Position numbers and translations under genes: made by a program
The notes under the pieces: model-generated
Databases searched by the model: none
What the model was told of the DNA's origin: nothing
Seen by the model: only the letters and a program-made list of their open reading frames with translations
Shown: positions 4,511-29,025 of the stretch, one piece after another
How positions within the stretch are numbered: position 1 is the stretch's first letter
Layout: each line of letters begins with the position of its first letter
Assembly (NCBI GenBank): GCA_001800975.1
Contig: MGWK01000007.1
Location: 124,001-188,000 of the forward strand
Length of the DNA stretch: 64,000 nucleotides
Reading direction: 5' to 3'
Origin: Flavobacteria bacterium RIFCSPLOWO2_12_FULL_35_11
GTDB taxonomy: Bacteria > Bacteroidota > Bacteroidia > Flavobacteriales > Flavobacteriaceae

Positions 4511-4708
4511 TTTTAATGTGTGCAAATTAAATTACTTTAAAAGTAATAAGCAACTATTTCAACACTTTTTTTTAAATAATTTTCATTTGATTGGCATTAA
4601 GGAAATTGAATAATTAAACGCAAATTTTTTGGACAATATAGTACTGTAAAGTTGTTTGAAGATAATTGTCAACTTTTTGAATGGGCTAAAAAGAGATCAC
4701 TTTTTTAA

Positions 4709-5179
4709 TTATTTATCAAGTAATTTTTGAATTTCATCTGTTCCCGGTAATTTTTTTTGTGCTGTTTTCTTCATTACATTTTCAACAACTTTAAAAATTT
4801 GTTGTTTAAGGTCTTTATATTTTTTTATGTAGGTATTTATTTCTACTTCTAATTTTTTATGATTTTCAATATAGTTTATATTTCCGGTAACGCTTTCGGT
4901 TGTGATCAATTCAGAAAGAATTTTCTCTTGTTCCCTAATGAGGTCTTGAAGTTCGGTTCCTAAATTTTTTTGAAGCGATATTTGTTTCACATTTTCTTCG
5001 ATTTTTTTATGCAAACCCGCTGCCAAAAAATCAATATAATTTGCGCTGAGCAAATGTTCCAAAAAGCGGATTTCATCTTTAATCAAATTTATTTCAGAAA
5101 CCCATACTTTAGAATCATTGTGCAATTCTTCTGTGTTTTTTTCCCTGCCAAACCAATCTTTTTTCATTTTAGTTTTCAT
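4709..5179 (-). CDS. hypothetical coiled-coil protein, paralogue of the 5284-5697 product
   Basis: I do not recognise a named family. The 156-residue protein is soluble, charged and mostly helical, with long predicted coiled coils (about 20-75 and 85-140) and no signal peptide. It shares a pattern with its neighbour at 5284-5697: TEELHNDSKVWVSEINLIKDEIRFLEHLL against MEELLYNISLWSAEFDFIHSELAFIKRLI, so the two arose by duplication. Each has its own Fnr-type promoter (here 5208-5250), which places it in the island regulon. The start ATG at 5179 is about 24 nt after the predicted transcription start. Function unknown; a small scaffold or stress-associated protein is possible. Confidence 0.75.
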   Translation of the reverse strand: MKTKMKKDWFGREKNTEELHNDSKVWVSEINLIKDEIRFLEHLLSANYIDFLAAGLHKKIEENVKQISLQKNLGTELQDLIREQEKILSELITTESVTGNINYIENHKKLEVEINTYIKKYKDLKQQIFKVVENVMKKTAQKKLPGTDEIQKLLDK

Positions 5180-5207
5180 CTTAAATCGAATTAGTTATTT
5201 TATCACA

Positions 5208-5250
5208 TAAAGTTAATTGCTTAAACTGAGGATTAATTTGATATTCATCA
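5208..5250 (-). promoter_or_regulatory. Fnr-type composite promoter P1
   Basis: On the minus strand the palindrome TGATGAATATCA (5239-5250) is followed after exactly 23 bp by the -7 element TAACTTTA (5208-5215). The target is the coiled-coil gene 4709-5179. Confidence 0.85.
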
Positions 5251-5283
5251 GTTTGCAAATTTTTTAAGATTTTATGGAAAAGA

Positions 5284-5697
5284 TTAATTAATGAGGCCAT
5301 TCACATATTCATATATTTGAATCTTTAAATTTTTGTAGTGTATCAAATACATGAAAACTTCTTCTGCTAATTTTTCATATTCCAAAAGGTAAAAATGGCC
5401 GCTTTCCAATACATTGATTTCTGGTGTTTCACTTAATTTAAGGTGATAACTGTTAATTTTTTTAGTGATATTGTTTTTTTCTTTTTCAAAATTGTCAAGT
5501 TCTAATGTAAATAATTGTAGGCGTTCGTACAAATTTGGAATTGTGGCAGTGAACGGATAGGCTTTAATGAGCCTTTTAATAAAGGCCAATTCGCTATGGA
5601 TAAAATCAAACTCTGCGCTCCATAAAGAAATATTGTAAAGCAATTCTTCCATGGTTTTATCTCTCGAAAATGATTTATAAACTGGGCTGGCTTGCAT
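5284..5697 (-). CDS. hypothetical coiled-coil protein, second paralogue
   Basis: This 137-residue protein has the same architecture as the 4709-5179 product: an N-terminal MEELLYNISLWSAEFDFIHSEL segment, then helical coiled coil, and an ending that contains VFMYLIHYKNLKIQIYEYV, matching TYIKKYKDLKQQIFKVVENV in the paralogue. No enzyme motif, membrane segment or signal peptide is visible. It has its own palindrome promoter at 5720-5762. The presence of two separately promoted paralogues at the edge of the island suggests that dosage or heteromer formation matters, but that is inference. Confidence 0.75.
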   Translation of the reverse strand: MQASPVYKSFSRDKTMEELLYNISLWSAEFDFIHSELAFIKRLIKAYPFTATIPNLYERLQLFTLELDNFEKEKNNITKKINSYHLKLSETPEINVLESGHFYLLEYEKLAEEVFMYLIHYKNLKIQIYEYVNGLIN

Positions 5698-5719
5698 CGC
5701 TGTTTTTTTTAATTCATAG

Positions 5720-5762
5720 CTAAGTAATTTATTTTAAGTTTTATAAAAAATGATATATATCA
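5720..5762 (-). promoter_or_regulatory. Fnr-type composite promoter P2
   Basis: A perfect palindrome TGATATATATCA (5751-5762), a 23-bp spacer, and the weakest -7 element of the set, TTACTTAG (5720-5727). The target is 5284-5697; the predicted start near 5715 leaves a leader of about 18 nt. Confidence 0.8.
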
Positions 5763-5908
5763 AATGGAAAATCAATTTTCGTATCGTAGTGGGTACAAAA
5801 ATTGGCGAAATTTCATAGTTTTTACCAATTCGAAAAATTTCTGCCCCTTATTTCATTGAAATTAATTTTTAAAAGCGATGCTTTAGTATCATTGGGCGCA
5901 TTTTAAAT

Positions 5909-5951
5909 TGAGCAATATCATTTTTTAAAACGGCAACTAAGTATAGCTTTA
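5909..5951 (+). promoter_or_regulatory. Fnr-type composite promoter P3
   Basis: On the plus strand TGAGCAATATCA (5909-5920; one mismatch in the first half-site) is followed by 23 bp and the -7 element TAGCTTTA (5944-5951). The predicted start near 5956 is 26 nt before the ATG of the four-gene operon 5982-8401. Confidence 0.82.
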
Positions 5952-5981
5952 TGTTATTATATTATTATAAAATATACGATC

Positions 5982-6596
5982 ATGAAAAAGCTGTTCCTAT
6001 TAATTCTTTGTTTTGGCATTCATTCGACTGCATTTGCGCAAATTTTAAGTGGTATTGATGAGGTTTATCCTTTGCAGGGAGAATTCGCTGCCATTAAAAA
6101 AGGAGATCAGTGGGCTTTTATCACAAAAGACGGAAAAATGGCCATTGATTTTAGAGATGATTTGGTGTTAACCAACAAGGTAAATGCTTCAAAACAAACA
6201 ACTTCATATCCTATTTTTTATGACGGAAGGTGTTTAATCAAAAAATTAATTGCAAATACTTATTACTTCGGTTTCATCAATGAAAAAGGCGTTGAAATAA
6301 TTAAACCTCAGTTTTTAAACGCAACCAATTTTTCAAATGGTTATGCCATTGTTGTTTTGGCGGCAAAAGATTCCATTGGTTTTAACCAAGTGCTAAGAAA
6401 ACCTATTATGTCAAATTATATGGAAGAATATGTCATTGACACCTCAGGAGAGTTGGTAAAATATTTATACAATCCAAGAAAAAACGTGTCGGCTAATAAT
6501 AAAAATGGCATTCCTACCATTGAATCGAAGTTTATAGCACCGAATTTGGTTGCCACAAAAACCAAAACTAAAAAATGGGAGATACATCAATTATAA
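5982..6596 (+). CDS. exported WG-repeat protein
   Basis: A 204-residue protein with a cleavable signal peptide (about residues 1-19, ending STAFAQ). Two WG-type repeats are visible, QWAFITKDGKMAIDF at about 43-57 and YYFGFINEKGVEIIKPQF at about 92-109; these short beta-hairpin repeats (tryptophan or aromatic, then G) are usually surface-exposed and bind ligands or partners, without enzymatic activity. It is the first gene of an operon with DUF2267, hydrolase and phosphoribosyltransferase genes (gaps of 17, 21 and 15 bp). It probably acts in the periplasm or outer envelope. Its precise role is unknown. Confidence 0.75.
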   Translation: MKKLFLLILCFGIHSTAFAQILSGIDEVYPLQGEFAAIKKGDQWAFITKDGKMAIDFRDDLVLTNKVNASKQTTSYPIFYDGRCLIKKLIANTYYFGFINEKGVEIIKPQFLNATNFSNGYAIVVLAAKDSIGFNQVLRKPIMSNYMEEYVIDTSGELVKYLYNPRKNVSANNKNGIPTIESKFIAPNLVATKTKTKKWEIHQL

Positions 6597-6613
6597 CTTA
6601 AAAAATAGAGGTC

Positions 6614-7060
6614 ATGTCACTAAATTTTAATCAATACGCAAGAGAAGGCAATGCATTTTTAAAGGATTATGCAAAAAAATTAAATATGCCCGACGATACC
6701 GACAGGGCGGGAAGAATTTTGTCTTCTATTTTACACGGGTTGCGTGAAGTAATTACCGTGGAAGAATCTTTACAGCTAATTTCCCAGTTCCCCATGTTTT
6801 TAAAAGCAGTGTATGTGAACAGATGGACCACACGCAAAAAGCATAAAGTTAAAAACATGACCGATTTTATTGATTTAATTCGAGAATTGGACGGGGTCAC
6901 TGCCTTACACGATTTCGGATCTGAGGAAATTGCTGAAAATTATATCAATTCAACATTTATGATTTTGCGTAAATACATTTCTTTGGGCGAATTAGAGGAT
7001 ATTAGAACGGTACTTCCTAGAGATCTTAAATCCATTGTATATCAAAATTTGATGTTTTAA
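6614..7060 (+). CDS. DUF2267 domain protein
   Basis: The 148-residue soluble protein consists almost wholly of a DUF2267 domain: the segment DRAGRILSSILHGLREVITVEESLQLISQFPMFLKAVYVNRW (residues about 30-72) matches the family pattern of RAxRxLxAvLhaLRerLxxeEaxxLxAQLPxlLRgxYxxGW. DUF2267 proteins have no established biochemical role but recur in stress gene clusters with Usp and BON genes, as here. It is the second gene of the P3-driven operon. Assignment to the family is good; function is open. Confidence 0.85.
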   Translation: MSLNFNQYAREGNAFLKDYAKKLNMPDDTDRAGRILSSILHGLREVITVEESLQLISQFPMFLKAVYVNRWTTRKKHKVKNMTDFIDLIRELDGVTALHDFGSEEIAENYINSTFMILRKYISLGELEDIRTVLPRDLKSIVYQNLMF

Positions 7061-7081
7061 AAAACGCTAAAAAATAAAGTT

Positions 7082-7732
7082 ATGAAAAGTACTGTTCAAA
7101 CCTATAAAGAAATTGACATTGATATAGGTGAAATATGTTTAAAAGGAAATTTAAGACTAGCCGACCATTCAAAGGGAATCATTTTATTTTCACATGGAAG
7201 CGGCAGCAGCAGACTGAGCATCAGAAATAATTATGTGGCAAGTTTGTTGATTGAAGAGGGTTTTTCAAGCTTGCTTTTTGATTTATTATCGGCCAAAGAA
7301 GACATGGTTTACGAAAATCGGTTTGATATTGAATTGCTTACACAACGGCTGGTGAAAGTCACAAAATGGGTGATGAAATATGAGGAAATAAAAAAATTGC
7401 CTATCGGATATTTTGGTGCCAGCACAGGCGCAGCTTCTGCCTTAAGCGCCGCCGCTGAAATGGGAAAAAGCATAAAAGCGATTGTTTCCAGAGGTGGCCG
7501 CCCAGATTTGGCAATGCCGATTTTAAAAGACATAAAAACACCTACGCTTTTAATCGTTGGCGGAGATGACGAAGTGGTTATTGAATTGAATAAAAAAGCA
7601 AAAGATACCATTGAAGGGGTATGTGAATTAAAAATTGTTGAGGGCGCCACACACTTATTTCCAGAAGCAGGAAAATTGGAAATTGTTGCCAAACTTACGG
7701 CAGATTGGTTTGATAAATATTTAAAAAAATAG
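7082..7732 (+). CDS. alpha/beta hydrolase (dienelactone hydrolase-like)
   Basis: A cytosolic serine hydrolase of 216 residues. The nucleophile elbow is G-A-S-T-G with Ser114, the oxyanion-hole segment HGSGSS is at 38-43, and the likely acid is in GGDDE (Asp162/163) with His191 in GATHLF. This variant, with GASTG and the RGGRPDLA segment, is the type found next to or fused to a phosphoribosyltransferase of the next gene's kind; in Mycobacterium tuberculosis the two domains are fused in Rv0571c, a DosR-regulon protein, as I recall. Here they are separate, 15 bp apart. The substrate is unknown. Confidence 0.85.
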   Translation: MKSTVQTYKEIDIDIGEICLKGNLRLADHSKGIILFSHGSGSSRLSIRNNYVASLLIEEGFSSLLFDLLSAKEDMVYENRFDIELLTQRLVKVTKWVMKYEEIKKLPIGYFGASTGAASALSAAAEMGKSIKAIVSRGGRPDLAMPILKDIKTPTLLIVGGDDEVVIELNKKAKDTIEGVCELKIVEGATHLFPEAGKLEIVAKLTADWFDKYLKK

Positions 7733-7747
7733 CTAAAACAAATTGAG

Positions 7748-8401
7748 ATGTTTACAAATAGGGAAGAAGCAGGCAATTTGGTTGCTGAGAAATTGTTGCA
7801 ATACAAAGCCAATAAAGAGACCGTTATTGTCACAATTCCAAGGGGCGGCGTTGCTACCGGATATGCAATTGCCAAAAAATTAGCGTTGCCGTTGGAAATT
7901 GTCCTCTCCAAAAAGATCGGACATCCGTTTAACAAAGAATATGCAATTGGCGCCGTAACTTTAAAAAACAGTATTTTAAGTGATGCGGCTTTGGAAGTTT
8001 CACAAGTATATATTCATGACGAAACCGAACAAATAAGAAAGTTGTTGAAACAACGCCTTGAATCGTATTATGGAGACAGAAAGCCAATGGATCTTAAAGA
8101 TAAAATAGTTATTTTGGTTGATGATGGAATTGCCACAGGAAATACAATGATTTCCTGCATTCAACTTATTGAAATGCAAAATCCGTTAAAAATTATTGTT
8201 GCTTTGCCGGTTGCACCGCCTTCTGCATTTAAAAAGATAAAGGAAATGGAAGAGGTTGACGAAGCAATTTGCTTGTCAACGCCAGTAAATTTTCAGGCAG
8301 TAGGACAGTTCTATGAAGAATTTAGTCAGATTGATGACAAGGAAGTCATAGAATTACTAAAAAACGCGAACGAAAAGCTTGGTTTGAAAAAAGCAAACTG
8401 A
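7748..8401 (+). CDS. phosphoribosyltransferase family protein
   Basis: A type I phosphoribosyltransferase fold of 217 residues. The PRPP-binding signature VILVDDGIATGNT is at residues 121-133 and the PRGG pyrophosphate loop at 31-34. The flexible part with KKIGHPFNKEYAIGAV is typical of the uncharacterised group that pairs with dienelactone hydrolase-like proteins. The acceptor base and product are not known. It is the last gene of the P3 operon and ends convergently, 6 bp from the stop codon of the ribonucleotide reductase, with no obvious terminator between them. Confidence 0.85.
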   Translation: MFTNREEAGNLVAEKLLQYKANKETVIVTIPRGGVATGYAIAKKLALPLEIVLSKKIGHPFNKEYAIGAVTLKNSILSDAALEVSQVYIHDETEQIRKLLKQRLESYYGDRKPMDLKDKIVILVDDGIATGNTMISCIQLIEMQNPLKIIVALPVAPPSAFKKIKEMEEVDEAICLSTPVNFQAVGQFYEEFSQIDDKEVIELLKNANEKLGLKKAN

Positions 8402-8407
8402 GCTGTT

Positions 8408-10132
8408 TTATTGACAATCTTTGGATATATTATTGAAATCACATTTTTGAATCACCTGTTTTTCCCTGCTTCCATATCTGTAAATGGTGATGCCCTTGAG
8501 GTTATATTCCCAAGCTGTCCAATAAATTTCGGCAATTTCTTCGGGGGAAGTATTTTCGGGTAAATTTATTGTTTTAGAAACCGCATTGTCTGTGAATTCC
8601 TGAAAGGCTTTTTGATGCAATAAATGATATTTCCAAGGGATTTCCTGGCTTGTTTCAAACACTTTTTTAAGTGAACTAGGAATTGCCTCATAGTTTTTTA
8701 TGCTTCCGGTTTCAAATATGTGTTTCTTTAGGACGGTATTCCAAAGTTCGAGCGATTTCATTTTGTCTTTAAAAAGTTTGTTCACTTCAATCTGAGTTTT
8801 GCCGCCGAGAATTCCGGATCGTTTAAAGGCCAATGCAAATAAAGGTTCAATAGAATAGGAGGCATCTGCTATTACAGAAATCGTTCCTGTTGGCGCAATG
8901 CTGTTGCAGGTTGCATTTCTAAGTGGATTTCCGTTGTAGTGTTTGCTGTTTTTCCATTCGGGGAACATTCCTTTTTCTATAGCCAAACTTTTGGATGTTT
9001 GGTAGCTTTTTTCTTTGATAAACCGCATCACCTTTTTGGCTAAATCAAGCGCTTCCAAAGATGCATAAGGAACATTAAGTTTAATGAGCATTTCTGCCCA
9101 ACCCATGACGCCCAATCCAATTTTCCGATTTCTTAGGGTAATTGATTTTATTTGTGGCAATAAATAATAATTTACAGAAACAACATTGTCTAAAAATCGA
9201 ATGGCAGTTTCAATTGTTGCTGTTAATTTATCCCAGTTTATTTCGGCAAAATTTTCTTTTTGCGTTACCATGTGCGATAAATTTATGGAGCCGAGATTGC
9301 AACTTTCATAATCCAGCAAAGGTACTTCCCCGCAAGGATTTGTGCTCTCAATTTTTCCAATTGCAGGTGTCGGATTGTGCTTATTGACAGTGTCTAAAAA
9401 AACAAGTCCGGGATCGCCAGTTTTCCAGGCTTCATCAATTATCAATTGCCATAAAATACGTGCATTTATTTTTTTTTCAATTTTCAGCGTTCTTGGATTG
9501 ATGAGTTTCCATACCTTGTTATTTTTTACGGCTTCCATAAAATCATTGGTGATTCCCACAGAAATATTAAAATTTTGAAGCTCGTTTTGGAAGGTTTTGA
9601 TTGTTATGAAATCTTCAATATCCGGATGGTTTATGTTTAGAATTCCCATATTTGCGCCCCTGCGTTTTCCGCCTTGTTTCACATTTTCTGTTGCCGTGTC
9701 ATAAATTTTCATAAAGGCAATTGGTCCCGAAGAAGTTCCCTGATTCGATGAAGTTTTATCATTCTTCGGCCTTAACCTGGAAAAATTAAATCCGGTTCCG
9801 CCGCCGCTTTGGTGAATTAATGCGGCATTTTTTAAGGTGGTGAAAATGCTTTTTAAACTGTCATTCACCGGTAAAACAAAGCAGGCGCTTAACTGTCCTT
9901 TTGGCGTGCCTGCATTCATAAGCGTAGGAGAATTTGGAAGAAAATCGAGATTGTTCATGAGGTTGAAAAATCGCTTTTCCCACTCGATTTTGTTATTGAT
10001 TTCTGCGGAAGCCAAAAATTTTGAAACGCGTTTAAATAGTTGTTTGGGCGTTTCCATAATAATCCCGTTGCGATCTCTTAGAAGATATCGGTCATTTAAA
10101 ATTTCCTTGGCATTTTTTGTTAAAGCAGCCAT
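8408..10132 (-). CDS. nrdZ: adenosylcobalamin-dependent (class II) ribonucleotide reductase, NrdZ/NrdJ type
   Basis: Oxygen-independent reduction of ribonucleotides to deoxyribonucleotides using B12. The 574-residue protein carries the class II signatures: redox Cys84 in LSACFVLP, HQSGGGTGFNFSRLRP at about 107-122, the radical Cys267 in NPCGE (265-269), second redox Cys409 in ATCNSIAPTGT. No N-terminal ATP cone is present, and the tail ends with two cysteines eight residues apart, which could serve as the re-reduction pair. It follows the HPF gene by 9 bp, so P4 drives both. The small NrdZ form is part of hypoxic regulons elsewhere (DosR in mycobacteria), which fits the promoter. Confidence 0.93.
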   Translation of the reverse strand: MAALTKNAKEILNDRYLLRDRNGIIMETPKQLFKRVSKFLASAEINNKIEWEKRFFNLMNNLDFLPNSPTLMNAGTPKGQLSACFVLPVNDSLKSIFTTLKNAALIHQSGGGTGFNFSRLRPKNDKTSSNQGTSSGPIAFMKIYDTATENVKQGGKRRGANMGILNINHPDIEDFITIKTFQNELQNFNISVGITNDFMEAVKNNKVWKLINPRTLKIEKKINARILWQLIIDEAWKTGDPGLVFLDTVNKHNPTPAIGKIESTNPCGEVPLLDYESCNLGSINLSHMVTQKENFAEINWDKLTATIETAIRFLDNVVSVNYYLLPQIKSITLRNRKIGLGVMGWAEMLIKLNVPYASLEALDLAKKVMRFIKEKSYQTSKSLAIEKGMFPEWKNSKHYNGNPLRNATCNSIAPTGTISVIADASYSIEPLFALAFKRSGILGGKTQIEVNKLFKDKMKSLELWNTVLKKHIFETGSIKNYEAIPSSLKKVFETSQEIPWKYHLLHQKAFQEFTDNAVSKTINLPENTSPEEIAEIYWTAWEYNLKGITIYRYGSREKQVIQKCDFNNISKDCQ

Positions 10133-10141
10133 AGTGAGCGC

Positions 10142-10444
10142 TTATAAATAGTGCTTCATTTCGTTTTTTCGTTTTTGAAGTTGCTTTTCTATGTCACGGA
10201 TGGTTTCATCGGTGGCAGCTTCAAAGCTAGCCTCATCAGAAAAAGCAAAAATTCTTGGACCGGGAAGACTTAATCTGATTTCACAAATTTTTCCTTTTCC
10301 TTTTGTGTCATGTTCTAATTTATAAAATACATCAGCCTTAATGAGCCATTCATATTTTTCAGCCATTTTAAGTAATCTTTTAATGGCGAAAGATTCCACA
10401 GCTTCACTTTTAGGCACTTGAACAAATTGAATTATAATTTCCAT
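10142..10444 (-). CDS. hpf: ribosome hibernation promoting factor / YfiA family protein (short type)
   Basis: About 100 residues from MEIIIQFVQVPKSEAVESF, the short HPF/RaiA fold with conserved EIRLSLPGPRIFAFSDEASFEAATDETIRDIEKQLQKRKNEM split as ribosome-binding strands and the final helix. It binds the small ribosomal subunit and silences translation in resting cells. An in-frame ATG at 10477 would add eleven residues, but the predicted transcription start from P4 is near 10474, so the internal ATG at 10444 is the better start. The gene is cotranscribed with nrdZ, coupling ribosome silencing to anaerobic dNTP supply. Confidence 0.85.
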   Translation of the reverse strand: MEIIIQFVQVPKSEAVESFAIKRLLKMAEKYEWLIKADVFYKLEHDTKGKGKICEIRLSLPGPRIFAFSDEASFEAATDETIRDIEKQLQKRKNEMKHYL

Positions 10445-10478
10445 AATAAAATTTTTAAATTGAAATTTTAAGAACAAT

Positions 10479-10521
10479 TAAAGTTATTCAAGACAGTTGC
10501 AATTGCCAATGATATATATCA
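10479..10521 (-). promoter_or_regulatory. Fnr-type composite promoter P4
   Basis: A perfect palindrome TGATATATATCA (10510-10521), a 23-bp spacer, and -7 element TAACTTTA (10479-10486). It drives hpf-nrdZ and rules out the upstream HPF start codon. Confidence 0.88.
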
Positions 10522-11132: not shown

Positions 11133-11531
11133 TTATAATGGGATTCTCAATGTTATTGTCGGCTGCGCTTTTGTCACAAAAGTATTGTGTTTAGGAAAAT
11201 TCGTTTTTTGATAATTAAAACTGATGGTGGCAGCTTTGTTTGCATTTTTTGCAGAACTTATAAAAAATGGAATGCTGGCTAAACCGGCAGCCGCACCACC
11301 CAACATCATAAAACCGCCAGTATCTACTGAACTCCAATCATCCGATTCATCAAAGATAATTGCTCCAACAACAGCTATAGTTGTTTCGCCTGCGAGTAAA
11401 ACCCAGCCTGTTTTCTTTTGACTTTTGCTTTTTTGTAAATAATCTTCTTTTGAAAGTGATGGATTTTATGCTTGGCAGAATGTATTTGCGGTAAAAAATA
11501 AGATAATTAAAAGAGCGGTAATTGTTTTCAT
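11133..11531 (-). pseudogene. exported small protein gene interrupted by a nonsense codon
   Basis: Reading the minus strand from ATG 11531 gives a signal peptide (MKTITALLIILFFTANTFCQ) and then TAA at 11466-11468 as codon 22, after which the same frame stays open for 110 more codons to a TAA at 11133. The downstream part (NPSLSKEDYLQKSKSQKK, then WVLLAGETTIAVVGAIIF and FMMLGGAAAGLASIPFFIS) has two glycine-rich hydrophobic segments and resembles a small membrane-associated family common in Flavobacteriia, in which a lysine codon sits where this stop is; a single AAA to TAA change would explain it. It lies directly downstream of the RNA-like repeat array. Confidence 0.75.
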
Positions 11532-11539
11532 TTGGAAAG

Positions 11540-12724
11540 GATTTTTAATTTTTTCACAGATAGGCTGTTTTTTTAAATAGAAACAGGAGGTCGCAACCTC
11601 CTGTTTCCTGAAGAGATTAAGTTTGTTTTATAACGCTAAACTAATTTTTCACATTAATTTATCTCTAAAATAACATCAATACTAAAATGAGTTTTAACTA
11701 AACAACAACTTGAAAATCTTCATTTCAATCTGCATTGCTCTTCGACAATGAAAATCTATTTTTTAATAGAAACAGGAAGCCGAAACTTCCTGTTTCCTGA
11801 AGAGGTTAAATTTGTTAGGTAATTTACGCTAATTTTAAATCTGGTTTATTGCTAAAACAACACCAAAATTAGTTTCAATTAAACAACACCCTTAACTTCT
11901 CCATTTCGGTTTTGCGCTATTTTTCAATAGTGCAAACCTATTTTTTAATAGAAACAGGAAGCCGAAACTTCCTGTTTCCTGAAGAGGTTAAATTTGTTAG
12001 GTAATTTACGCTAATTTTAAATACTGGTTTATTGCTAAAACAACACCAAAATTAGTTTCAATTAAACAACACCCTTAACTTCTCCATTTCGGTTTTGCGC
12101 TATTTTTCAATGGTGCAAACCTATTTTTTAGTAGAAACAGGAAGCCGTAACTTCCTGTTTCCTGAAGAGGTTAAGTTTTTAATAACGTTAAACTAACTTT
12201 TTGTAGCACTTTATTTCTAAAACAATACTAAAATTGGCTCTAATAAATAAAAACTCGAGACTCCTCATTTCAATCTGCATTGCTTCTCAACAATGAAGAT
12301 TTATTTTTTTAGGAGAAGCAGGAAGTTTCAAGTTCCTGCTTCCTGAAGAGGTTAAGTAGTTAGTTTTATAACGATAACTAATTTTTCATAGCGTCTCATT
12401 TCTAAAACAGCACTAAAATTAGTTTCAAACAAACCATCACTTAAACCTTCATATTGATCTTCATTATTTTTCAACAATGGAGACCTGTTTTTTGATAGAA
12501 GCAGGAGGGGTCGGCCTCCTGCTTCTAACTTGAAGAAATTAAGTTGTTTACTATAACTTTTATTCAATTTCTTACGTCACCTTATTTCTAAGGCAAAACT
12601 AAAATTAATTTTAGTTATGGACATCTTAAACTCTTCAATATAGATCATATTGCTATGTAAAATGCAAATTTACATGTGTGGGGAAATTTTTTTTTTCTAA
12701 AAATCAATGAACTTTTTATTTAAT
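11540..12724 (-). ncRNA. predicted regulated transcript carrying the structured repeat array
   Basis: Promoter P5 (12729-12771) points leftward into a 1.2-kb stretch with no convincing reading frame. The predicted RNA would start near 12724 and cross six repeat units, each with a strong hairpin. No rho-independent terminator is visible at the left end, so the transcript may continue into the broken gene at 11133-11531 and the array may be its 5' leader. Transcription itself is inferred from the promoter only. Confidence 0.5.
11580..12525. repeat. six-unit tandem array of structured ~183-bp repeats
   Basis: Six hairpins at 11580-11607, 11771-11798, 11951-11978, 12134-12161, 12315-12342 and 12498-12525 are spaced 191, 180, 183, 181 and 183 bp apart. 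Each is GAAACAGGAAG/CTTCCTGTTTC or a compensated variant (GAAGCAGG/CCTGCTTC in the two rightmost units). Between hairpins, read on the minus strand, come a second stem-loop (for example GGTTTGC...GCAAAACC or CATTG...CAATG) and a third stem CTAATTTT...AAAATTAG, then TTAACCTCTTCAGG. The two central spacers are nearly identical; the outer ones have diverged. A seventh, hairpin-less unit lies at about 12526-12680. Confidence 0.9.
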
Positions 12725-12728: not shown

Positions 12729-12771
12729 TAAAATTAATACCAAAATAGTAAGCTTGAAATGATATGCATCA
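12729..12771 (-). promoter_or_regulatory. Fnr-type composite promoter P5, facing the repeat array
   Basis: On the minus strand TGATGCATATCA (12760-12771), 23 bp, TAATTTTA (12729-12736). It fits the set exactly and points away from the membrane-protein gene at 12825, into the array. Confidence 0.82.
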
Positions 12772-12824
12772 ATTTGGCATATGATTGTTATCAGTTATTG
12801 AAATTTTTTTTCATCCTTTTTTTA

Positions 12825-14103: not shown

Positions 14104-14146
14104 TAAAATTAGGTCCTAAAATTTTATTGTAAAATGATATATATCA
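14104..14146 (-). promoter_or_regulatory. Fnr-type composite promoter P6
   Basis: A perfect palindrome TGATATATATCA (14135-14146), a 23-bp spacer, and TAATTTTA (14104-14111). The target is the Usp gene and its membrane-protein partner. Confidence 0.88.
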
Positions 14147-14247: not shown

Positions 14248-15303
14248 CTAATACACTTTTTTTAGTTTTTCAATATTCAAAATTTTGATATTTCTTCCTT
14301 CTATGTCAATAAGACCGTCTCTTTTAAAATCGGATAGTGTCCTTATAAAAGTTTCAGTTGCAATACCGGCGATACCTGCAAGATCGGTTCTTGATATTTT
14401 TGGATTGTCGTTGTGCGCTTTTTTCATTTTTTCTGAAAATTGCAGCAGGGTATTTGCAGTTTTTTTTCGCACCGAACTATAAGCCATTTGTAGCAATTGG
14501 TCTTTAATTTCCGATACGTTATCTGTCAAGTGATCTATCAATTCGAAGGTAACTTCGTGATTTTTTTGTAAAATATTTTTGAATTCGCTTTTTAACAATC
14601 GTAAAACTTTTACATTTTCAATGGCTGCAGCAGATTCCTGATACGCAATATTGTTTGAGAAGGACGTAAAACCAAAAAAGTCATCTTCTTTATGCAATCC
14701 CGTAATTAACTCTTTGCCTTGTTCGTCAATTTTAAATGTTTTTACGATGCCTTCGCTTATTAAAAACACAAAATTGGAATTATCTCCATCATGGTAAATA
14801 ATCTCGCCAGGACTAAATTCGAATTCTTCTACATTATCCGCGAAAAAGTTTTTAAGATGATTAAGTGTTTTTAGTTCATTTTCTGCATAATAAAGTTCCG
14901 TGCTTCCAACTTTCTCCATATTTTCTTTAATGATGGCAACCCTGGCCAATCTGCTTTCTATGGCGCTAAAAAGTTCAGATTCATCAAAAGGCTTCGTGAT
15001 ATAATCATCGGCGCCCAAATCCATTCCTTTGCGGATATCTTTATGTTCTGTTTTTGCCGATAAAAAAATAAATGGAATATGTTTTGTTTCGGGTTCTTTT
15101 GAGAGTATTTGAAGCACGCCGTAACCGTTTAATTCGGGCATCATAATGTCGCAGAGAATAATGTCCGGAAGCTGTTTTTTGGCTTCAGAAACACCAATTT
15201 TGCCATTTGCGGCAGTATATACCTTATAATTGGCCAACTCCAAAAGTTCAGCAGTATTCTCCCTAACCACTTCATCATCTTCTATTAATAAAACTTTTTT
15301 CAT
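14248..15303 (-). CDS. response regulator fused to a Crp/Fnr-type DNA-binding module
   Basis: A 351-residue transcription factor with three parts: receiver domain (1-120; acidic pocket Glu8/Asp9/Asp10, phosphoacceptor Asp52 in LCDIMMP, Lys104 in TKPF); cyclic-nucleotide-binding beta-roll (about 140-260, EFSPGEIIYHDGD...FLISEGIVKTF); winged helix-turn-helix (about 280-350). The recognition helix reads ATETFIRTLSDFK, with Glu317 and Arg321 at the positions that read the TTGAT half-site in Fnr-like proteins. The four-cysteine iron-sulfur set of E. coli Fnr is absent, so any oxygen sensing must come through the receiver. The gene overlaps the kinase gene by 4 bp (ATGA). It is the best candidate to bind the 13 palindromes. 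Confidence 0.93.
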   Translation of the reverse strand: MKKVLLIEDDEVVRENTAELLELANYKVYTAANGKIGVSEAKKQLPDIILCDIMMPELNGYGVLQILSKEPETKHIPFIFLSAKTEHKDIRKGMDLGADDYITKPFDESELFSAIESRLARVAIIKENMEKVGSTELYYAENELKTLNHLKNFFADNVEEFEFSPGEIIYHDGDNSNFVFLISEGIVKTFKIDEQGKELITGLHKEDDFFGFTSFSNNIAYQESAAAIENVKVLRLLKSEFKNILQKNHEVTFELIDHLTDNVSEIKDQLLQMAYSSVRKKTANTLLQFSEKMKKAHNDNPKISRTDLAGIAGIATETFIRTLSDFKRDGLIDIEGRNIKILNIEKLKKVY

Positions 15304-16544
15304 GATTCCTTAATTATTGGCAATTCAACTAAAAAAACAGAACCTTTATTTTCTAGGCTTTTAAAACTAATGGTTCCGCCTAGGTTTTCTAAATGTTCTT
15401 TAACAATATTTAAACCAATGCCAGTTCCCTTAATATTCAACACATTCTCTGCCCTAAAATAGCGATTAAAGATAAATTTTTGGTCGTTTTCGGGAATTCC
15501 AACCCCTTTATCGGTAATTTTAAAAACGAGGTTATCTGCCTTTTTATATATTTCTAAATTAATATCTGTGTTCTCGGGCGAATATTTTATGGCATTATAG
15601 ATGATATTATTTAGGGAAAGTTCTAAAATTTTTTCATCTTGGTGCAGCACAAAATCTGAAATGTTTTGAGAAATATTTATATGCTGACCGCTTTTCAAAA
15701 GCATATTGGCATTGTAAACCACCTCATTAATTACTTTGCTTAAATTAAAGACCGTAAATTTATAATTTACATTGCTGGTATCTAAACGCTCCACGGATAA
15801 AAAATCATTTAAAATATTATTGAGGTAATTTACTTTGTTTGTGATTGTTTTTAAATGTTTGTCCCTTTTTTCCTGTTGTTCGCTCAATTGGTATTTTTCC
15901 AATAAAATGACCGAGGTTAAAATACCGCTTAAAGGCGTTTTAAATTCATGGGAAACCAGCGATAAAAATTTAGATTTTAGTTCATTTAGTTCTCTTTCCT
16001 TTTTTAAGGCATCATTAATTTTACCCTCTATTTTAATTCTTCGTTGTAATTCTTTTTTATAATTGAGATTGACTTCTTTTAATTTTGCTATGGTTTTTTC
16101 CAATTTGACAGTTCCTATTTTAACTTTTTCTTCCAGCACAACATTTAAAGAATCTATTTTTTTTTCAGTTTCTCTATGAACAGTCATATCAATGATTAGG
16201 GCCATAACGAACTCTTTTTCATAAAGAGTAAAAGAATTTAGTGAAATTTCAAGAGGAAATTCTATGTTGTTTTTTGTTAAGCCAAATAAGTACAGTCCAC
16301 TGGTGTTCTTTCCTCGGTTAATTTGTTTTGTAAAATAGTTTAATTGATTTTTATGGGTGGTTAGGTATCTTTTTGGCAGAAGGATATCTTTAGGTTGATT
16401 GAGCAATTCCCCTTTTTCATAACCAAACATTTTTTCGGCTGAAGAATTTGCGGCAATGATATTGGTATCTTTATCAACAATGAAAATCCCTCCAGGAATA
16501 GCTTCAAAAAGGATATTAAAGATATCTTGATTTTGATTAAACAC
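15300..16544 (-). CDS. PAS-domain sensor histidine kinase (FixL-like)
   Basis: Soluble hybrid-free kinase; PAS domain, coiled coil, HisKA and HATPase_c. Numbered from a TTG at 16673, which gives 457 residues, PAS spans about 45-165, a coiled-coil linker 165-235, the phospho-His is 242 in SHEFKTP, the N-box Asn360, the G1 box DKGVGIP and G2 box GTGIGLN. No ATG precedes the PAS domain. I prefer the GTG at 16544 because a consensus promoter lies just upstream (16566-16573), inside the longer frame. The PAS aligns without gaps to the haem PAS of FixL (His107 at the proximal haem position) but Leu replaces the distal Arg. Its partner is the overlapping regulator gene. Confidence 0.88.
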   Translation of the reverse strand: MFNQNQDIFNILFEAIPGGIFIVDKDTNIIAANSSAEKMFGYEKGELLNQPKDILLPKRYLTTHKNQLNYFTKQINRGKNTSGLYLFGLTKNNIEFPLEISLNSFTLYEKEFVMALIIDMTVHRETEKKIDSLNVVLEEKVKIGTVKLEKTIAKLKEVNLNYKKELQRRIKIEGKINDALKKERELNELKSKFLSLVSHEFKTPLSGILTSVILLEKYQLSEQQEKRDKHLKTITNKVNYLNNILNDFLSVERLDTSNVNYKFTVFNLSKVINEVVYNANMLLKSGQHINISQNISDFVLHQDEKILELSLNNIIYNAIKYSPENTDINLEIYKKADNLVFKITDKGVGIPENDQKFIFNRYFRAENVLNIKGTGIGLNIVKEHLENLGGTISFKSLENKGSVFLVELPIIKES

Positions 16545-16565
16545 CGTATTTTTATTGATTTTGAA

Positions 16566-16573
16566 CAAAATTA
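16566..16573 (-). promoter_or_regulatory. -7 box of the kinase-regulator operon
   Basis: TAATTTTG on the minus strand matches the Bacteroidota TAnnTTTG consensus and would start transcription near 16561, 17 nt before the GTG at 16544. No Fnr-type palindrome lies 23 bp upstream of it. Confidence 0.5.
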
Positions 16574-16680
16574 ATTTTGGATAAAAGGTAGTGAAAAAAT
16601 AAATAGGTAAGATTGAAAAAGCGCAATATTTTAGAATGAATGATTTTTTTTGACAAAAGTGCCAACAATTCAACTAAATT

Positions 16681-16723
16681 TTGTCAATATCATTTAATTA
16701 TACATTTATAAATATTACCTTTA
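16681..16723 (+). promoter_or_regulatory. Fnr-type composite promoter P7 (degenerate first half-site)
   Basis: TTGTCAATATCA (16681-16692) keeps only the second half-site, then 23 bp and TACCTTTA (16716-16723). The predicted start near 16728 leads into a 20-codon frame and then the CDP-alcohol phosphatidyltransferase operon. Confidence 0.6.
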
Positions 16724-19894: not shown

Positions 19895-19937
19895 CTAATT
19901 TACAAAGAAGCTAAAATGGCTGAAATGATATATATCA
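19895..19937 (-). promoter_or_regulatory. Fnr-type composite promoter P8
   Basis: A perfect palindrome TGATATATATCA (19926-19937), a 23-bp spacer, and TAAATTAG (19895-19902). The targets are the lipoprotein and patatin genes. Confidence 0.87.
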
Positions 19938-22501: not shown

Positions 22502-22544
22502 TAAAGTTATTGCTGATTTCTATCGTATAAAATGATTTATATCA
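22502..22544 (-). promoter_or_regulatory. Fnr-type composite promoter P9
   Basis: Oriented TGATATAAATCA (22533-22544), a 23-bp spacer, and TAACTTTA (22502-22509). It drives mlaEFD. Confidence 0.85.
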
Positions 22545-22675: not shown

Positions 22676-22718
22676 TGATATTTATCATTTAAAGTTAAAA
22701 TAGCAGTTTTTAACTTTA
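22676..22718 (+). promoter_or_regulatory. Fnr-type composite promoter P10
   Basis: TGATATTTATCA (22676-22687), a 23-bp spacer, and TAACTTTA (22711-22718). The predicted start near 22723 is 54 nt before the ATG of the sigma-like gene. It is divergent from P9, with 131 bp between the two palindromes. Confidence 0.86.
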
Positions 22719-22776: not shown

Positions 22777-23475
22777 ATGAAAATTAAAGAATCACAGTAT
22801 CTCAAACAAGAAAACGATTTCCAGGAATTTTATAAAAAAAGTTCGAAGGTTCTTCCAAGTTTGAAAAAGTTCGCAGCTGCAAAATTAAAATTGGCCGAAA
22901 AAGAAGGCTTAATTGACAAAGGATTTTACGATGCCAATGAAATTTTAGATGAAGTGTTTATGGATGTTTTTAAAACTTATTCTGATGACATTGATGAAAA
23001 ACAGTTAAAACAAACCCTCTTTTTAAAAACCATACTAAAAATAAACCATAAAATTGAGAGGGAGAATCAATTCGCCGACATTATAAATATTGATACTATT
23101 TTAAAGGATGAAATGAATTCATTGAAAGAAGATTATTCAATAGAGGCTGATGGAGATTATATATTTGATGAAGAACTTGATGATATTTCCTACAAACAAA
23201 ACAGTTTTAATCCTGTTCATTTTATTTTAGACCAGCCAATGGAAATGGAACTCACCGGGAAATTGGATTTGAGCGATATATCGTTGGTTTCAGACAAAAA
23301 CAGAATATTGTTTGGCGCTTCATTTTATACATTGCCACCTATAAGCAAAACCATTATTGAATTGTATGTATTTGGAGATCAAGAAATAGCTGAAATAGCT
23401 GAAACCTTGTCAGTTGATAAAAAAACAGTTCAAAATGTGATTGACAGGGTGAGAGAAAGGCTTGAAAAACTATAA
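22777..23475 (+). CDS. divergent sigma-70-family (ECF-like) protein
   Basis: A 232-residue protein whose end is a clear sigma region 4: LPPISKTIIELYVFGDQEIAEIAETLSVDKKTVQNVIDRVRERLEKL (split as SKTIIELYVFGDQEIAEI and SVDKKTVQNVIDRVRERL), residues about 185-232. The N-terminal part (about 40-95) contains YDANEILDEVFMDVFKTYSD, which resembles sigma region 2 only loosely, and an acidic linker (about 105-155) separates the two. It may be a sigma factor or a region-4 DNA-binding regulator. Its promoter P10 places it under the island regulator, which would make a second tier of control. Confidence 0.7.
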   Translation: MKIKESQYLKQENDFQEFYKKSSKVLPSLKKFAAAKLKLAEKEGLIDKGFYDANEILDEVFMDVFKTYSDDIDEKQLKQTLFLKTILKINHKIERENQFADIINIDTILKDEMNSLKEDYSIEADGDYIFDEELDDISYKQNSFNPVHFILDQPMEMELTGKLDLSDISLVSDKNRILFGASFYTLPPISKTIIELYVFGDQEIAEIAETLSVDKKTVQNVIDRVRERLEKL

Positions 23476-26305: not shown

Positions 26306-26381
26306 AGCTGATTTTATTTATTAACGGGCAACTTTTTTAATAGCATTCTTTATTCAAAATGAAATAGACTTTCTGCATTTT

Positions 26382-26420: not shown

Positions 26421-26465
26421 TAAATGATTTAAACAAATGATGATATTGCTCAACATTTACTTTAG

Positions 26466-27134
26466 TTAAGCATATTCTGGATGATATTGCACTTTTAGCT
26501 CATTTTTAACTTCATATACGCCAGGTGCGAAATAAGCCGCTCTTTGAGCTTCCTCTTTTTCGGCAATTGAATTAACGGTTCCGCGCAAGGTAACTGTATG
26601 TCCGTCAACTGCAACAGTAACGTTTCTGGCATTAACATCCGCAGAGCGTTCAAATGCTTTTGTAATTCTTTCTTTTATTTGAGAAGGTTCCAAAGCTTGT
26701 TTTATTTGAATGCTGTTGACCACGCCTTTTACGCCAAGCAAATTTTCAACTGCTTTTTTTGCGGCATCTTTTTGATAAAACCATTTTAGTTCTCCGGATA
26801 AATAAACCCAGCCATCTTCCACTTTTATAGAAACTTTTTCTTCAGGTACAGAAGTATCCCAGGCCAAAGCATTTACAACTGCTTTTGCAATTTCTTTATC
26901 AGTTTTTTTGTAGTCGGTTCCATATTTAACATCAATATCAAGTGCAACTGCTTTTACGCCTTTTACCGTTTTTACGGCTTTTTCTGCGGCTACTTTTTTT
27001 GTGTAATTGTCTACAACGCCGCTGAGCGTTACAACACCATCTTCAACAATAACACCAATTTTTGTTTCATCAATGTTTGGTTGCCAGGCCAATTCATCTA
27101 ACACATCATTTTTAATTTCGGCATCGGTTTTCAT
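26466..27134 (-). CDS. triple BON-domain protein
   Basis: 222 residues made of three BON domains at about 3-70, 77-145 and 152-219, each with the repeated V-x-V-x-G-x-V-x-L-x-G-x-V core (for example VIVEDGVVTLSGVVDNYTKK, VEDGWVYLSGELKWF, VDGHTVTLRGTVNS). BON domains bind membranes or ligands; OsmY is a two-domain periplasmic example. This protein has no signal peptide, so it is probably cytosolic. Such three-BON cytosolic proteins appear in Usp-type stress clusters. Promoter P11 lies upstream and a terminator downstream, so it is a single-gene unit. Confidence 0.92.
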   Translation of the reverse strand: MKTDAEIKNDVLDELAWQPNIDETKIGVIVEDGVVTLSGVVDNYTKKVAAEKAVKTVKGVKAVALDIDVKYGTDYKKTDKEIAKAVVNALAWDTSVPEEKVSIKVEDGWVYLSGELKWFYQKDAAKKAVENLLGVKGVVNSIQIKQALEPSQIKERITKAFERSADVNARNVTVAVDGHTVTLRGTVNSIAEKEEAQRAAYFAPGVYEVKNELKVQYHPEYA

Positions 27135-27171
27135 AATAATATAGTTTTAATTAAACAAAATATTTAGAAGT

Positions 27172-27214
27172 CAAAAATAGGTTAACAGTTCTTCAATTAA
27201 AATGAGGGAAATCA
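27172..27214 (-). promoter_or_regulatory. Fnr-type composite promoter P11 (degenerate box, consensus -7)
   Basis: Oriented TGATTTCCCTCA (27203-27214; one mismatch in the second half-site), a 23-bp spacer, and a full-consensus TATTTTTG (27172-27179). The target is the BON gene. Confidence 0.72.
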
Positions 27215-27391
27215 ATCAGCTAAATTTTTTATGAAAAATTTTATTAGGTAGTTTTTTTATTATTCTGAAAAAATGAAAATGATTAATTTTTGCCTATTGT
27301 GTGTTAAGTTTTTCTCCTAATATGTTTATTTTAAAACTATTATCCACAATGATTAATTATTTAAAACTATTAGAAATCGTTTTAAACCAAA

Positions 27392-27434
27392 TGATTTATA
27401 TCAATTCTTAAAGCGATGAAAATTTATAATTTTA
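27392..27434 (+). promoter_or_regulatory. Fnr-type composite promoter P12
   Basis: TGATTTATATCA (27392-27403), a 23-bp spacer, and TAATTTTA (27427-27434). The predicted start near 27439 is 39 nt before the LOG-family ATG. The 343-bp gap between the BON and LOG genes is explained by P11 and P12. Confidence 0.86.
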
Positions 27435-27477
27435 AACGGTAAATCAGGGTTTAAAGAATTAAAATAACAGTAAAACG

Positions 27478-28242
27478 ATGGAATCCACAAATGGCAATCT
27501 TAAAAATTATTTAATTGAAGAAAGTCCATTTCTTCAGGGGCCCCGTAATAGGCTTAAAGAATTATGGTTCACATTTAAAGTGCAATACTATTTTATAAAA
27601 GCGTTTAGAAAATTGCACTTTATTGGGCCTTGCGTTACTGTGTTTGGTTCGGCAAGGTTTGATGAAAACAATTTCTTTTATAAAAAAGCGGAAGAAGTGG
27701 GAGCGGCCTTGGCCAAGTTGGGATTTACCGTGATGACCGGTGGCGGACAAGGTATCATGGAAGCTGTAAACAAGGGCGCTTACGAAGCCGGCGGTTATTC
27801 CGTCGGTTGTAATATTGTGCTTCCGAAAGAACAAAAACCAAATGCCTATTTGCACAAATGGATCAATATTCCTTACTTTTTTGTGCGTAAATTTTTGCTG
27901 ATGAAATATTCTTTTGGTTTTGTTGTGATGCCTGGCGGAATTGGAACTTTGGATGAATTGTTTGAAGCGCTTACCTTAATTCACACAAAAATGATCAAGG
28001 ATTTCCCCATAGTAATTTTTGGCAAGGAATATCATAAGGAATTGTACCACCATATTAAACTCATGGCAAAAAATGAAAGCATTGAAAAGGAAGATATGAA
28101 ACTGCTTTTTATGACTGATTCTGTAGATGAAATGATTGCCCATTTAAAAGTTCATGCAGTTAAAAAATTTGGGCTTAAAAATAAATCATATAAATCCAAA
28201 TGGTGGTTTGGTGAATTAAAACCACCAAAAAAAAGAGTATAA
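27478..28242 (+). CDS. LOG-family protein (TIGR00730-type nucleotide phosphoribohydrolase)
   Basis: 254 residues with the Rossmann-like LOG fold. The signatures GGGQGIMEA (88-96) and PGGIGTLDE (152-160) are complete, as in enzymes that release the base from nucleoside 5'-monophosphates; such enzymes activate cytokinins in plants and degrade AMP or other NMPs in bacteria (PpnN type). An N-terminal extension of about 50 residues with an aromatic-rich segment precedes the fold. In this island a nucleotide-degrading enzyme next to a class II reductase and phosphoribosyltransferase suggests nucleotide-pool management in resting cells, by inference. Confidence 0.9.
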   Translation: MESTNGNLKNYLIEESPFLQGPRNRLKELWFTFKVQYYFIKAFRKLHFIGPCVTVFGSARFDENNFFYKKAEEVGAALAKLGFTVMTGGGQGIMEAVNKGAYEAGGYSVGCNIVLPKEQKPNAYLHKWINIPYFFVRKFLLMKYSFGFVVMPGGIGTLDELFEALTLIHTKMIKDFPIVIFGKEYHKELYHHIKLMAKNESIEKEDMKLLFMTDSVDEMIAHLKVHAVKKFGLKNKSYKSKWWFGELKPPKKRV

Positions 28243-28283
28243 AACAATAAAAAAGGAGCCAAAGGCTCCTTTTTTATTGTTTT
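28241..28283. terminator. bidirectional terminator
   Basis: A perfect 20-bp stem (28241-28260 with 28264-28283) with an AAA loop contains GGAGCC/GGCTCC flanked by A and T runs, so it ends transcription from both convergent genes. It overlaps the last bases of the LOG gene. Confidence 0.9.
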
Positions 28284-28292
28284 AACAAGCGT

Positions 28293-28805
28293 TTAAAGGA
28301 AATTTCCTTCTTCATCACATTTCACTCTAATTCGGTCATCACCATTTTTCAATAAAATTTTGTATCTTTTGGTAATTTTACCTACATCGCCGGCATCATG
28401 ATAGTTTACCAAGTAAACATCATTTGCGAAAGTCCAACCTGGATAGGTTCTTGCAACAGATTCAATAACTTTTTTAGGCAATGCCACATCTTTAAATCTT
28501 TCTGCAGTTCTTAAAATATTTCCTTGTCCGTCATAAGATGCCAAAATATAGCCATCCGGAATATAAAAGGACACTTCATAAGTTCCATATTCATCTACAT
28601 AAAAATCAGCATCTTTAATATTGAAACCTGCCACTTTTTGTTCCAATAAAGCAACTGACACAGATGCATTTTCAAGACCTGTTTTGTTGAGATATTTGTA
28701 ATTTGTGGCTGATATTACAACTTCAGACAATTCTTCGGTTCTTATCTGACCATAAGTTTGGATGGTTAATCCAAAAATTATTAAACCATAGATTATTTTT
28801 TTCAT
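28293..28805 (-). CDS. exported PepSY-like protein
   Basis: 170 residues with a signal peptide (1-19, ending QTYGQ). The mature part carries a PepSY-like unit at about 85-170: YDGQGNILRTAERFKDVALP, then VARTYPGWTFANDVYLVNY and the strand pair KRYKILLKNGDDRIRVKCDEEG. Such proteins are common periplasmic proteins of Bacteroidota with a suspected inhibitor or sensing role, not proved. The two conserved -7 and palindrome elements of P13 lie 61-103 bp upstream. It is a single-gene unit ending in the bidirectional terminator. Confidence 0.75.
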   Translation of the reverse strand: MKKIIYGLIIFGLTIQTYGQIRTEELSEVVISATNYKYLNKTGLENASVSVALLEQKVAGFNIKDADFYVDEYGTYEVSFYIPDGYILASYDGQGNILRTAERFKDVALPKKVIESVARTYPGWTFANDVYLVNYHDAGDVGKITKRYKILLKNGDDRIRVKCDEEGNFL

Positions 28806-28865
28806 GTGTTAAAATGTTTAAATTAATAACTGAGCAAATAAAAAGATGCTTCTAATTTTATAGGT

Positions 28866-28908
28866 CAAAATTATTAATCATAACATATTAGTACAATGAG
28901 AAAAATCA
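28866..28908 (-). promoter_or_regulatory. Fnr-type composite promoter P13 (degenerate box, consensus -7)
   Basis: Oriented TGATTTTTCTCA (28897-28908), a 23-bp spacer, and a full-consensus TAATTTTG (28866-28873). The target is the PepSY-like gene. This is the rightmost member of the set. Confidence 0.7.
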
Positions 28909-29025
28909 ATTTTAAAATGATTGGGAATGATTATAACCCAGATTTTTACCTAAAGGGGTGATTGTTATCAAGGTTCCGATAAAAAACAGCAAGGGTTAAT
29001 TTATTTTAAGAGTAAATAATAAATT

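Follow-up and report, generated by a model that had tools for sequence, protein, structure and literature searches.

A fixed-spacing CRP/FNR-type promoter class in Flavobacteriaceae and its dense cluster in a tRNA-bordered island encoding a response regulator with CRP/FNR output

The window analysed in this study is a stretch of 64,000 nt from Flavobacteria bacterium RIFCSPLOWO2_12_FULL_35_11 (MGWK01000007.1, positions 124,001-188,000; window coordinates count from 1), whose genome assembly, GCA_001800975.1, comprises 3.56 Mb in 98 contigs. Its left half contains a gene island bordered by a tRNA-Thr gene (4434..4510, − strand, a second tRNA-Thr lies nearby at 4139-4212) and a tRNA-Pro gene (29067..29144, − strand). 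Among the island genes are those for a universal stress protein (Usp), an HPF-like ribosome hibernation factor, a B12-dependent ribonucleotide reductase (RNR), lipid-transport and lipid enzymes, BON-domain and LOG-family proteins, and a response regulator with a CRP/FNR-type output, hereafter RR-CRP, with its neighbouring PAS histidine kinase. The promoter regions of the island repeat one composite arrangement, a 12-bp palindromic box followed after 23 bp by a −7 element, and we define an exact composite as TGA-N6-TCA-N23-TANNTTTR.

The initial annotation had listed 13 such promoters between 4.6 and 28.9 kb, by the + strand starts of their palindromes, and had held that the repetition could not be chance. 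Ten of the 13 are exact and firm (5239−, 5909+, 10510−, 12760−, 14135−, 22533−, 22676+, 27203−, 27392+ and 28897−), two (5751 and 19926) have a weaker −7 element and are not exact, and one (16681) is unsupported, its left half reading TTG instead of TGA. In 200 first-order Markov sequences, the mean was 0.07 exact composites per window and the maximum was two; in the window itself, alternative spacings from 15 to 31 gave zero or one match each. A weight matrix of 49 columns, trained on 230 composites from other genomes and none from the window, found 15 places above 8 bits (0.52 expected), 13 above 14 bits (0.03 expected) and 10 above 16 bits (0.02 expected), and all places in the latter two sets lie within 4.6-28.9 kb. 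Eleven of the 13 places above 14 bits are listed sites; of the other two, one is the 22533 palindrome read on the opposite strand and one a palindrome close by, at 12782 (+). In the matrix ranking, the first nine places went to exact sites and the tenth to 19926 (17.2 bits), with 27203 at 14.2 bits and 5751 at 11.9 bits. The parts of the window described as empty, the first 4 kb and everything beyond 29 kb, indeed hold zero exact composites, apart from which the matrix gives one weak match there (11.3 bits, at 32220).

Operon extents along the island are presumed in the following description. At the left, an exact composite (5208..5250, −; 23.5 bits) precedes a coiled-coil gene (4709-5179), and the weak site with the −7 element TTACTTAG (5720..5762, −) precedes its paralogue (5284-5697). 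The composite at 5909..5951 (+, exact; 24.6 bits) stands before a run of genes with Pfam matches to WG-repeat, DUF2267, DLH hydrolase and phosphoribosyltransferase (5982-8401). The one at 10479..10521 (−, exact; 22.2 bits) would serve the HPF-like gene (10142-10477; Pfam) and the RNR gene (8408-10132), whose product passes the NCBIfam model for B12-dependent NrdJ/Z. Further on, the composite at 12729..12771 (−, exact; 20.8 bits) lies 5′ of a non-coding tandem array (about 11570-12610) and a DUF302 gene. This array consists of six − strand units that recur at intervals of about 183 nt and all contain a GAAACAGGAAG...CTTCCTGTTTC-type hairpin, and it is possibly an RNA array expressed along with the island. 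An Rfam scan of the array gave no family reaching its gathering score, and two matches fell so far below theirs that we took them as chance. Between the array and the DUF302 gene, a − strand segment (about 11180-11545) resembles, by eye, a short interrupted gene.

The composite at 14104..14146 (−, exact; 28.2 bits) lies between RR-CRP and the Usp gene (13233-14078), a position conserved in the family. The unsupported site (16681..16723, +; below 8 bits) had been claimed for a CDP-alcohol phosphatidyltransferase gene. The weaker composite with the −7 element TAAATTAG (19895..19937, −) precedes a gene at 19494-19874 and a patatin gene (18703-19473), and an exact one (22502..22544, −; 27.3 bits) precedes the mlaEFD-like operon (22502-19957; Pfam), for which a later ATG is likely because the listed start of the open reading frame (ORF) overlaps the −7 element. 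A composite at 22676..22718 (+, exact; 21.0 bits) belongs to a sigma-like protein of 232 aa (22777-23475), whose sole Pfam match is to sigma-70 region 4 and which falls below the NCBIfam cut-off. Towards the right border are the composites of a BON-domain gene (27172..27214, −, exact; gene 26466-27134, with expression possibly continuing to genes as far as 23545), of a LOG-family gene (27392..27434, +, exact; 23.3 bits; gene 27478-28242) and of a gene for a protein of 170 aa without a Pfam match (28866..28908, −, exact; 21.4 bits; gene 28293-28805).

In class II promoters of the E. coli type, the FNR or CRP box is centred at −41.5. The spacing of 23 bp puts the centres of box and −7 element 33 bp apart by arithmetic, as had been stated at the outset, and it is the predominant spacing in window, genome and family alike. 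Start-site mapping in Flavobacterium psychrophilum places TAnnTTTG at −12 to −5 (PMC9723704, the main text of which mentions neither Crp, Fnr nor palindromes). Because the −7 element occupies −12 to −5 in that species and 23 bp lie between, the 12-bp box would span −47 to −36 and have its centre at −41.5, which bears out the predicted position of a class II activator. The matrix of 230 family sites has no conserved TTTG element at −33; the activator box thus occupies the place where the core promoter is without its upstream element. Both features support a class II CRP/FNR-type arrangement. The centre at −41.5 is shared with the E. coli-type promoters, whereas the −7 element is the Bacteroidota TAnnTTTG and the box has the family consensus (A/C)TGAY-N4-RTCAT, with C (0.52) or A (0.39) before TGA and T (0.97) after TCA. 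The canonical FNR box, TTGAT-N4-ATCAA, does not describe this matrix. From the end of the −7 element to the first chosen ATG, the median distance was 24 nt over 274 downstream ORFs.

The composite is not confined to the island. Genome-wide there are 56 exact composites, compared with 3 for the reversed pattern; 10 of them are in the island, where an even spread would put 0.38 (P ~1e-11), and 46 are elsewhere. When TGATN4ATCA boxes in the genome were paired with TANNTTTR at gaps of 10 to 38, a gap of 23 accounted for 28 of the 52 matches and no other gap for more than 3. The TGATN4ATCA form of the composite was present in 98 genomes of our family sample (120 genomes), with 623 occurrences in total and 29 in the reversed control. 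Beyond the family it becomes sparser: in a phylum sample, the composite was found in 53 of 148 genomes, including 15 of 15 from its own family, and more than one occurred in 5 of the 111 genomes outside the class. The composite is therefore a genome- and family-wide promoter class, and the island is a dense cluster of it. The scan of genome and relatives proposed in the initial annotation thus supports a shared regulon; its description as island-wide is right as to the cluster, but a regulon limited to the island is ruled out by the 46 outside sites, some of which may be chance, given the 3 in the control.

We scanned 19 of the 46 downstream genes outside the island with Pfam, ten chosen by eye as likely metabolic and then nine more. 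The first ten gave three subunits of pyruvate or 2-oxoacid:ferredoxin oxidoreductase (POR/PFOR), two ferredoxin-type proteins, pyruvate phosphate dikinase, an electron transfer flavoprotein, a molybdopterin oxidoreductase, a flavodoxin and a primary-type sigma factor. The other nine included ResB-like, FadL-like, glyoxalase, fasciclin, cation ATPase and LolA-like proteins. Given these mixed results, anaerobic metabolism is well represented among the targets, yet does not account for all of them. The sigma factor gene (L040:2333-3196), which encodes regions 1.2, 2, 3 and 4, lies behind a composite, so the regulon may extend to the core transcription machinery.

The regulator encoded in the island, RR-CRP (14248..15303, −), combines receiver, cNMP-binding and HTH_Crp_2 domains by Pfam and is our proposed activator, a candidate that the initial annotation had overlooked. 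Directly upstream lies the gene of the PAS histidine kinase (15300..16673, −; the listed TTG start is probably too far upstream), which is its presumed partner. The best PDB matches of the PAS domain are the PAS domains of FixL (E 4e-7). In an alignment of 58 kinases, 54, including that of the window, have His at the FixL haem-ligand position, which we take to be His200, and 40 have Arg at the distal haem-pocket position, presumably Arg220. In the RR-CRP receiver, the phospho-acceptor Asp and the conserved Lys are present in 61 of 61 proteins, as expected of a response regulator, and in the presumed recognition helix, ATE[ST]xIR, Glu and Arg are found in 61 of 61 and Ile in 60 of 61. Full-length RR-CRP occurs in 54 of the 120 family genomes and also in other Bacteroidota, for example, Aquimarina, Salinimicrobium, Mucilaginibacter, Chitinophaga and Jiulongibacter. 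Our literature search, which covered largely journals outside subscription, found no published description of RR-CRP or of the composite.

To compare surroundings, we used 60 of the 69 full-length RR-CRP copies (1.156 Mb), leaving aside the window's own copy, one at a contig edge and seven second or third copies. The kinase is directly upstream in 57 of the 60 loci. These loci contain 229 composites at spacing 23, compared with 1 to 8 at each other spacing from 0 to 52 and 3 at spacing 23 in the reversed control, and at least one composite is present in 59 loci. In 46 loci, a composite begins between 9 and 79 bp past the end of RR-CRP, and the next ORF is a member of the same universal stress protein cluster in all 46; the order in the window is identical, with box 14135 between RR-CRP and Usp. 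This cluster, to which the Usp of the window belongs, accounts for 104 of 230 composites and is under a composite in 55 of the 60 loci. The other targets around RR-CRP are TerB-like, coiled-coil, HPF, WG-repeat, CcoS-like, MlaE-like, BON, thioredoxin-like and HemN-like; names beyond the Pfam matches of the window (such as CcoS-like and HemN-like) are our presumptive assignments from sequence starts. No composite lies within 160 bp before RR-CRP in any of the 60 loci, and autoregulation of the kinase/RR-CRP operon through a composite is mostly absent. Among 80 loci from wider Bacteroidota, we used the 14 whose match extends over most of RR-CRP; 9 of these have at least one composite, with 18 in total at spacing 23 and 1 in the reversed control. 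The same relatives (L276-L289) also contain eight palindrome/−7 pairs at spacing 45, perhaps one repeat. In Mucilaginibacter and Arcticibacter (L284 ~11064 and L287 ~11073), the composite after RR-CRP precedes, by eye, a D-lactate dehydrogenase-like gene rather than Usp.

A second candidate reader is encoded outside the island. The source genome has five HTH_Crp_2 proteins, one of them FNR-like, whose best NCBIfam model is Fnr (PRK11161) at 85.6 bits, below the cut-off of 228. Its gene adjoins a cation-ATPase gene with metal-binding and HMA domains, which we take to be ccoI-like. In the 30 best-matching FNR-like loci, chosen without a motif filter, five cysteines are conserved in all 30, and the protein is thus perhaps an Fe-S protein that senses O2. 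Glu, Ser, Ile and Arg of the recognition helix are likewise found in 30 of 30, and the motif ATE[ST]xIR is common to this protein and RR-CRP. Its Ile position presumably corresponds to Ser212 of E. coli FNR, and an Ile in place of this Ser fits the altered outer bases of the box.

The distribution of the two regulators across the family sample is informative. An FNR-like protein was called present at a best match of 2.5e-55 or below (the next weaker best matches begin at 6.4e-40), and both this call and that of RR-CRP depend on E-value cuts. Genomes with neither regulator (n=24) averaged 0.54 TGATN4ATCA composites (control, 0.21), those with the FNR-like protein alone 4.29 (n=42), those with RR-CRP alone 5.93 (n=27) and those with both 10.0 (n=27). 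Each regulator-bearing group exceeded the group with neither (p 8e-10 to 5e-8), and genomes with both exceeded those with the FNR-like protein alone (p 4e-6), in comparisons that ignore kinship. Among genomes with neither regulator, the eight of at least 2.5 Mb averaged 0.125, and a single one was rich in composites (G048, with 7; 82% complete, 6% contaminated). We conclude that two proteins, the FNR-like protein and the island-encoded RR-CRP, probably read the box. The name Fnr-box given initially is right in that the box is of CRP/FNR type; the family consensus is a different one, and the name covers one of two probable readers, because the island encodes RR-CRP and genomes with RR-CRP alone keep the composites.

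It could be argued that all boxes, those of the island included, are read solely by the FNR-like protein beside the ccoI-like gene, RR-CRP being a neighbour with other targets. The matching recognition motifs of the two proteins and the composites of FNR-like-only genomes, a few of which stand at Usp and HPF genes, speak for this explanation. However, the RR-CRP-only genomes have their composites in the absence of such an FNR-like protein, and the mean remains 5.05 in the 21 that are left when six with another FNR-like match are removed. The composites are also more tightly clustered there: in 8 of 15 RR-CRP-only and 5 of 15 FNR-like-only genomes compared (G116, a fragmented assembly, was excluded), one 75-kb stretch around RR-CRP held 39 to 83% of the composites in seven of the eight RR-CRP-only genomes and 18% in the eighth, and one 75-kb stretch held 9 to 29% in the five FNR-like-only genomes. 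In addition, a composite abuts RR-CRP in the 46 loci described above. We therefore regard reading by the FNR-like protein alone as unlikely.

A second alternative leaves the promoter logic unchanged and replaces oxygen as the signal by nitric oxide, the redox state of the respiratory chain, carbon or starvation. It draws on the lack of the FixL distal Arg in the kinase of the window, on the response of CRP/FNR relatives such as HcpR to nitric oxide (PMC12750200) and on a Flavobacteriales CRP/FNR homologue predicted to be a carbon sensor (PMC8510549). Against this, numerous target genes, in this genome and across the family, suggest anaerobic or micro-oxic conditions (CcoS-like and HemN-like, both by eye; POR/PFOR; molybdopterin oxidoreductase), and a signal other than oxygen seems improbable to a similar degree. 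Finally, the notion that TATA-rich palindromes merely fall near TAnnTTTR in DNA that is 65% A+T, for which the three weak or unsupported sites of the original 13 might be quoted, can be dismissed for the ten exact sites on the shuffles, reversed-pattern controls and spacing histograms given above.

The borders bear on how the island may have arisen. In genome G003, tRNA-Pro and tRNA-Thr are 35 bp apart, and the contig ends soon after them, so that an exact empty site is not demonstrated. In G047, of the same genus, the tRNA-Thr flank has, by eye, genes for ECF-type sigma-like, channel-like and transposase-like proteins instead. The two RR-CRP copies of G047 are 51 and 49% identical to that of the window and copies of other genera up to 64%, whereas the FNR-like protein and its G047 counterpart share 85% identity. 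A distant RR-CRP within the genus, next to a close FNR-like protein and closer RR-CRP copies in other genera, fits an acquisition of the island from beyond the genus, presumably by insertion between the tRNA genes. No att-like direct or inverted repeats of at least 12 bp were found at the island edges.

Taken together, we consider it likely that the composites are class II promoters read by the FNR-like protein and by a kinase-driven RR-CRP, and that the island is a low-oxygen survival module. A CRP/FNR-type dimer bound to (A/C)TGAY-N4-RTCAT at −41.5 would substitute for the absent −33 element and contact RNA polymerase carrying the primary sigma factor of flavobacteria above the TAnnTTTG-type −7 element, acting as an activator rather than a repressor. 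The FixL-related PAS kinase, possibly a haem protein, would sense a fall in oxygen or in respiratory state and phosphorylate RR-CRP, which could then bind at −41.5, recruit polymerase and allow the island to be expressed, with the FNR-like protein feeding a further signal into these promoters. Low oxygen as the signal is suggested by the genes present and by the likeness of the PAS domain to that of FixL. Made under this condition, the island products (Usp, ribosome hibernation factor, B12-dependent RNR, lipid-transport and lipid enzymes, BON and LOG proteins) may lower the rate of translation, help to preserve proteins and membranes and sustain deoxynucleotide supply without O2.

Several observations weigh against this interpretation. 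Haem binding is least sure in the kinase of the window itself, which has Leu at the distal position. In the window, the operon of kinase and RR-CRP is not itself preceded by an exact composite, and only 4 of the 57 orthologous pairs have one before the kinase, all four among the five most divergent copies. Of the 19 scanned targets outside the island, at least 6 (FadL-like, glyoxalase, fasciclin, cation ATPase, LolA-like and sigma) are not obviously connected with low oxygen, and a further three lack a Pfam match. A Usp gene is under a composite in two of six FNR-like-only genomes examined (G059 and G072), and the FNR-like protein alone can thus serve Usp; the disregard of kinship in the group comparisons counts here too. 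The carbon-sensing prediction for a Flavobacteriales CRP/FNR homologue comes from a wastewater-community paper, which put that protein, possibly RR-CRP or the FNR-like protein described here, near MalR (PMC8510549).

To judge from the papers found, little mapping has been done in Flavobacteriaceae of activator-dependent promoters or of regulation by low oxygen. With its fixed 23 bp between box and −7 element, the composite allows a regulon to be read directly from the sequence of most family genomes sampled, and two regulators, each with a clear prediction attached, come out of its analysis as candidates.

Known systems offer close parallels to this island. The FixL-FixJ-FixK2 cascade of rhizobia resembles it in having a PAS kinase, that of the island being nearest to FixL in PDB, a receiver, and a CRP/FNR activator whose box, similar to TTGA-N6-TCAA, is located some 40 bp ahead of the start. 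FixJ has a NarL/LuxR-type output, whereas the receiver here is joined to cNMP_binding and HTH_Crp_2 domains in one protein; the outer bases of the box, the Bacteroidota −7 promoter and targets that include a Usp island are further differences. A FixK2-like box at 40.5 has been described in nosR (PMC5582078).

DosS/DosR of Mycobacterium is similar in its two-component control and in the presence of Usp and the class II RNR NrdZ among hypoxia/dormancy genes. DosR is a NarL-type regulator, whereas the island regulator is CRP-type; the systems have no promoter in common, and the genes here are gathered in one island. Usp and nrdZ have been reported among the mycobacterial hypoxia/dormancy genes, although one study failed to confirm nrdZ (PMC8044303). 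The lxa-type locus, in a different phylum, is a gene cluster for anoxic persistence and contains six universal stress proteins (PMC9104464). In Myxococcus xanthus, the oxygen-linked phosphorelay NmpRSTU controls a universal stress protein, a cbb3 oxidase and HemN; its regulator is NtrC-type, and in a relative the homologue of its sensor relies on a protoglobin domain (PMC11841059).

These parallels suggest that an anoxic-survival gene kit (Usp, hibernation factor and B12-dependent RNR) has come under the control of different two-component systems from phylum to phylum. We give about even chances to a more specific proposal, that the FixJ and FixK steps are fused here, with a FixL-like kinase acting on a receiver-CRP/FNR protein that uses the same −41.5 box as the FNR-like protein, so that two sensors converge on one promoter class, and that the pair travels with a Usp-centred survival island as a Bacteroidota counterpart of DosR and lxa. 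By analogy, the island most likely works like FixLJ-FixK, DosRS or lxa, but with a regulator of a type that differs from both FixJ and DosR.

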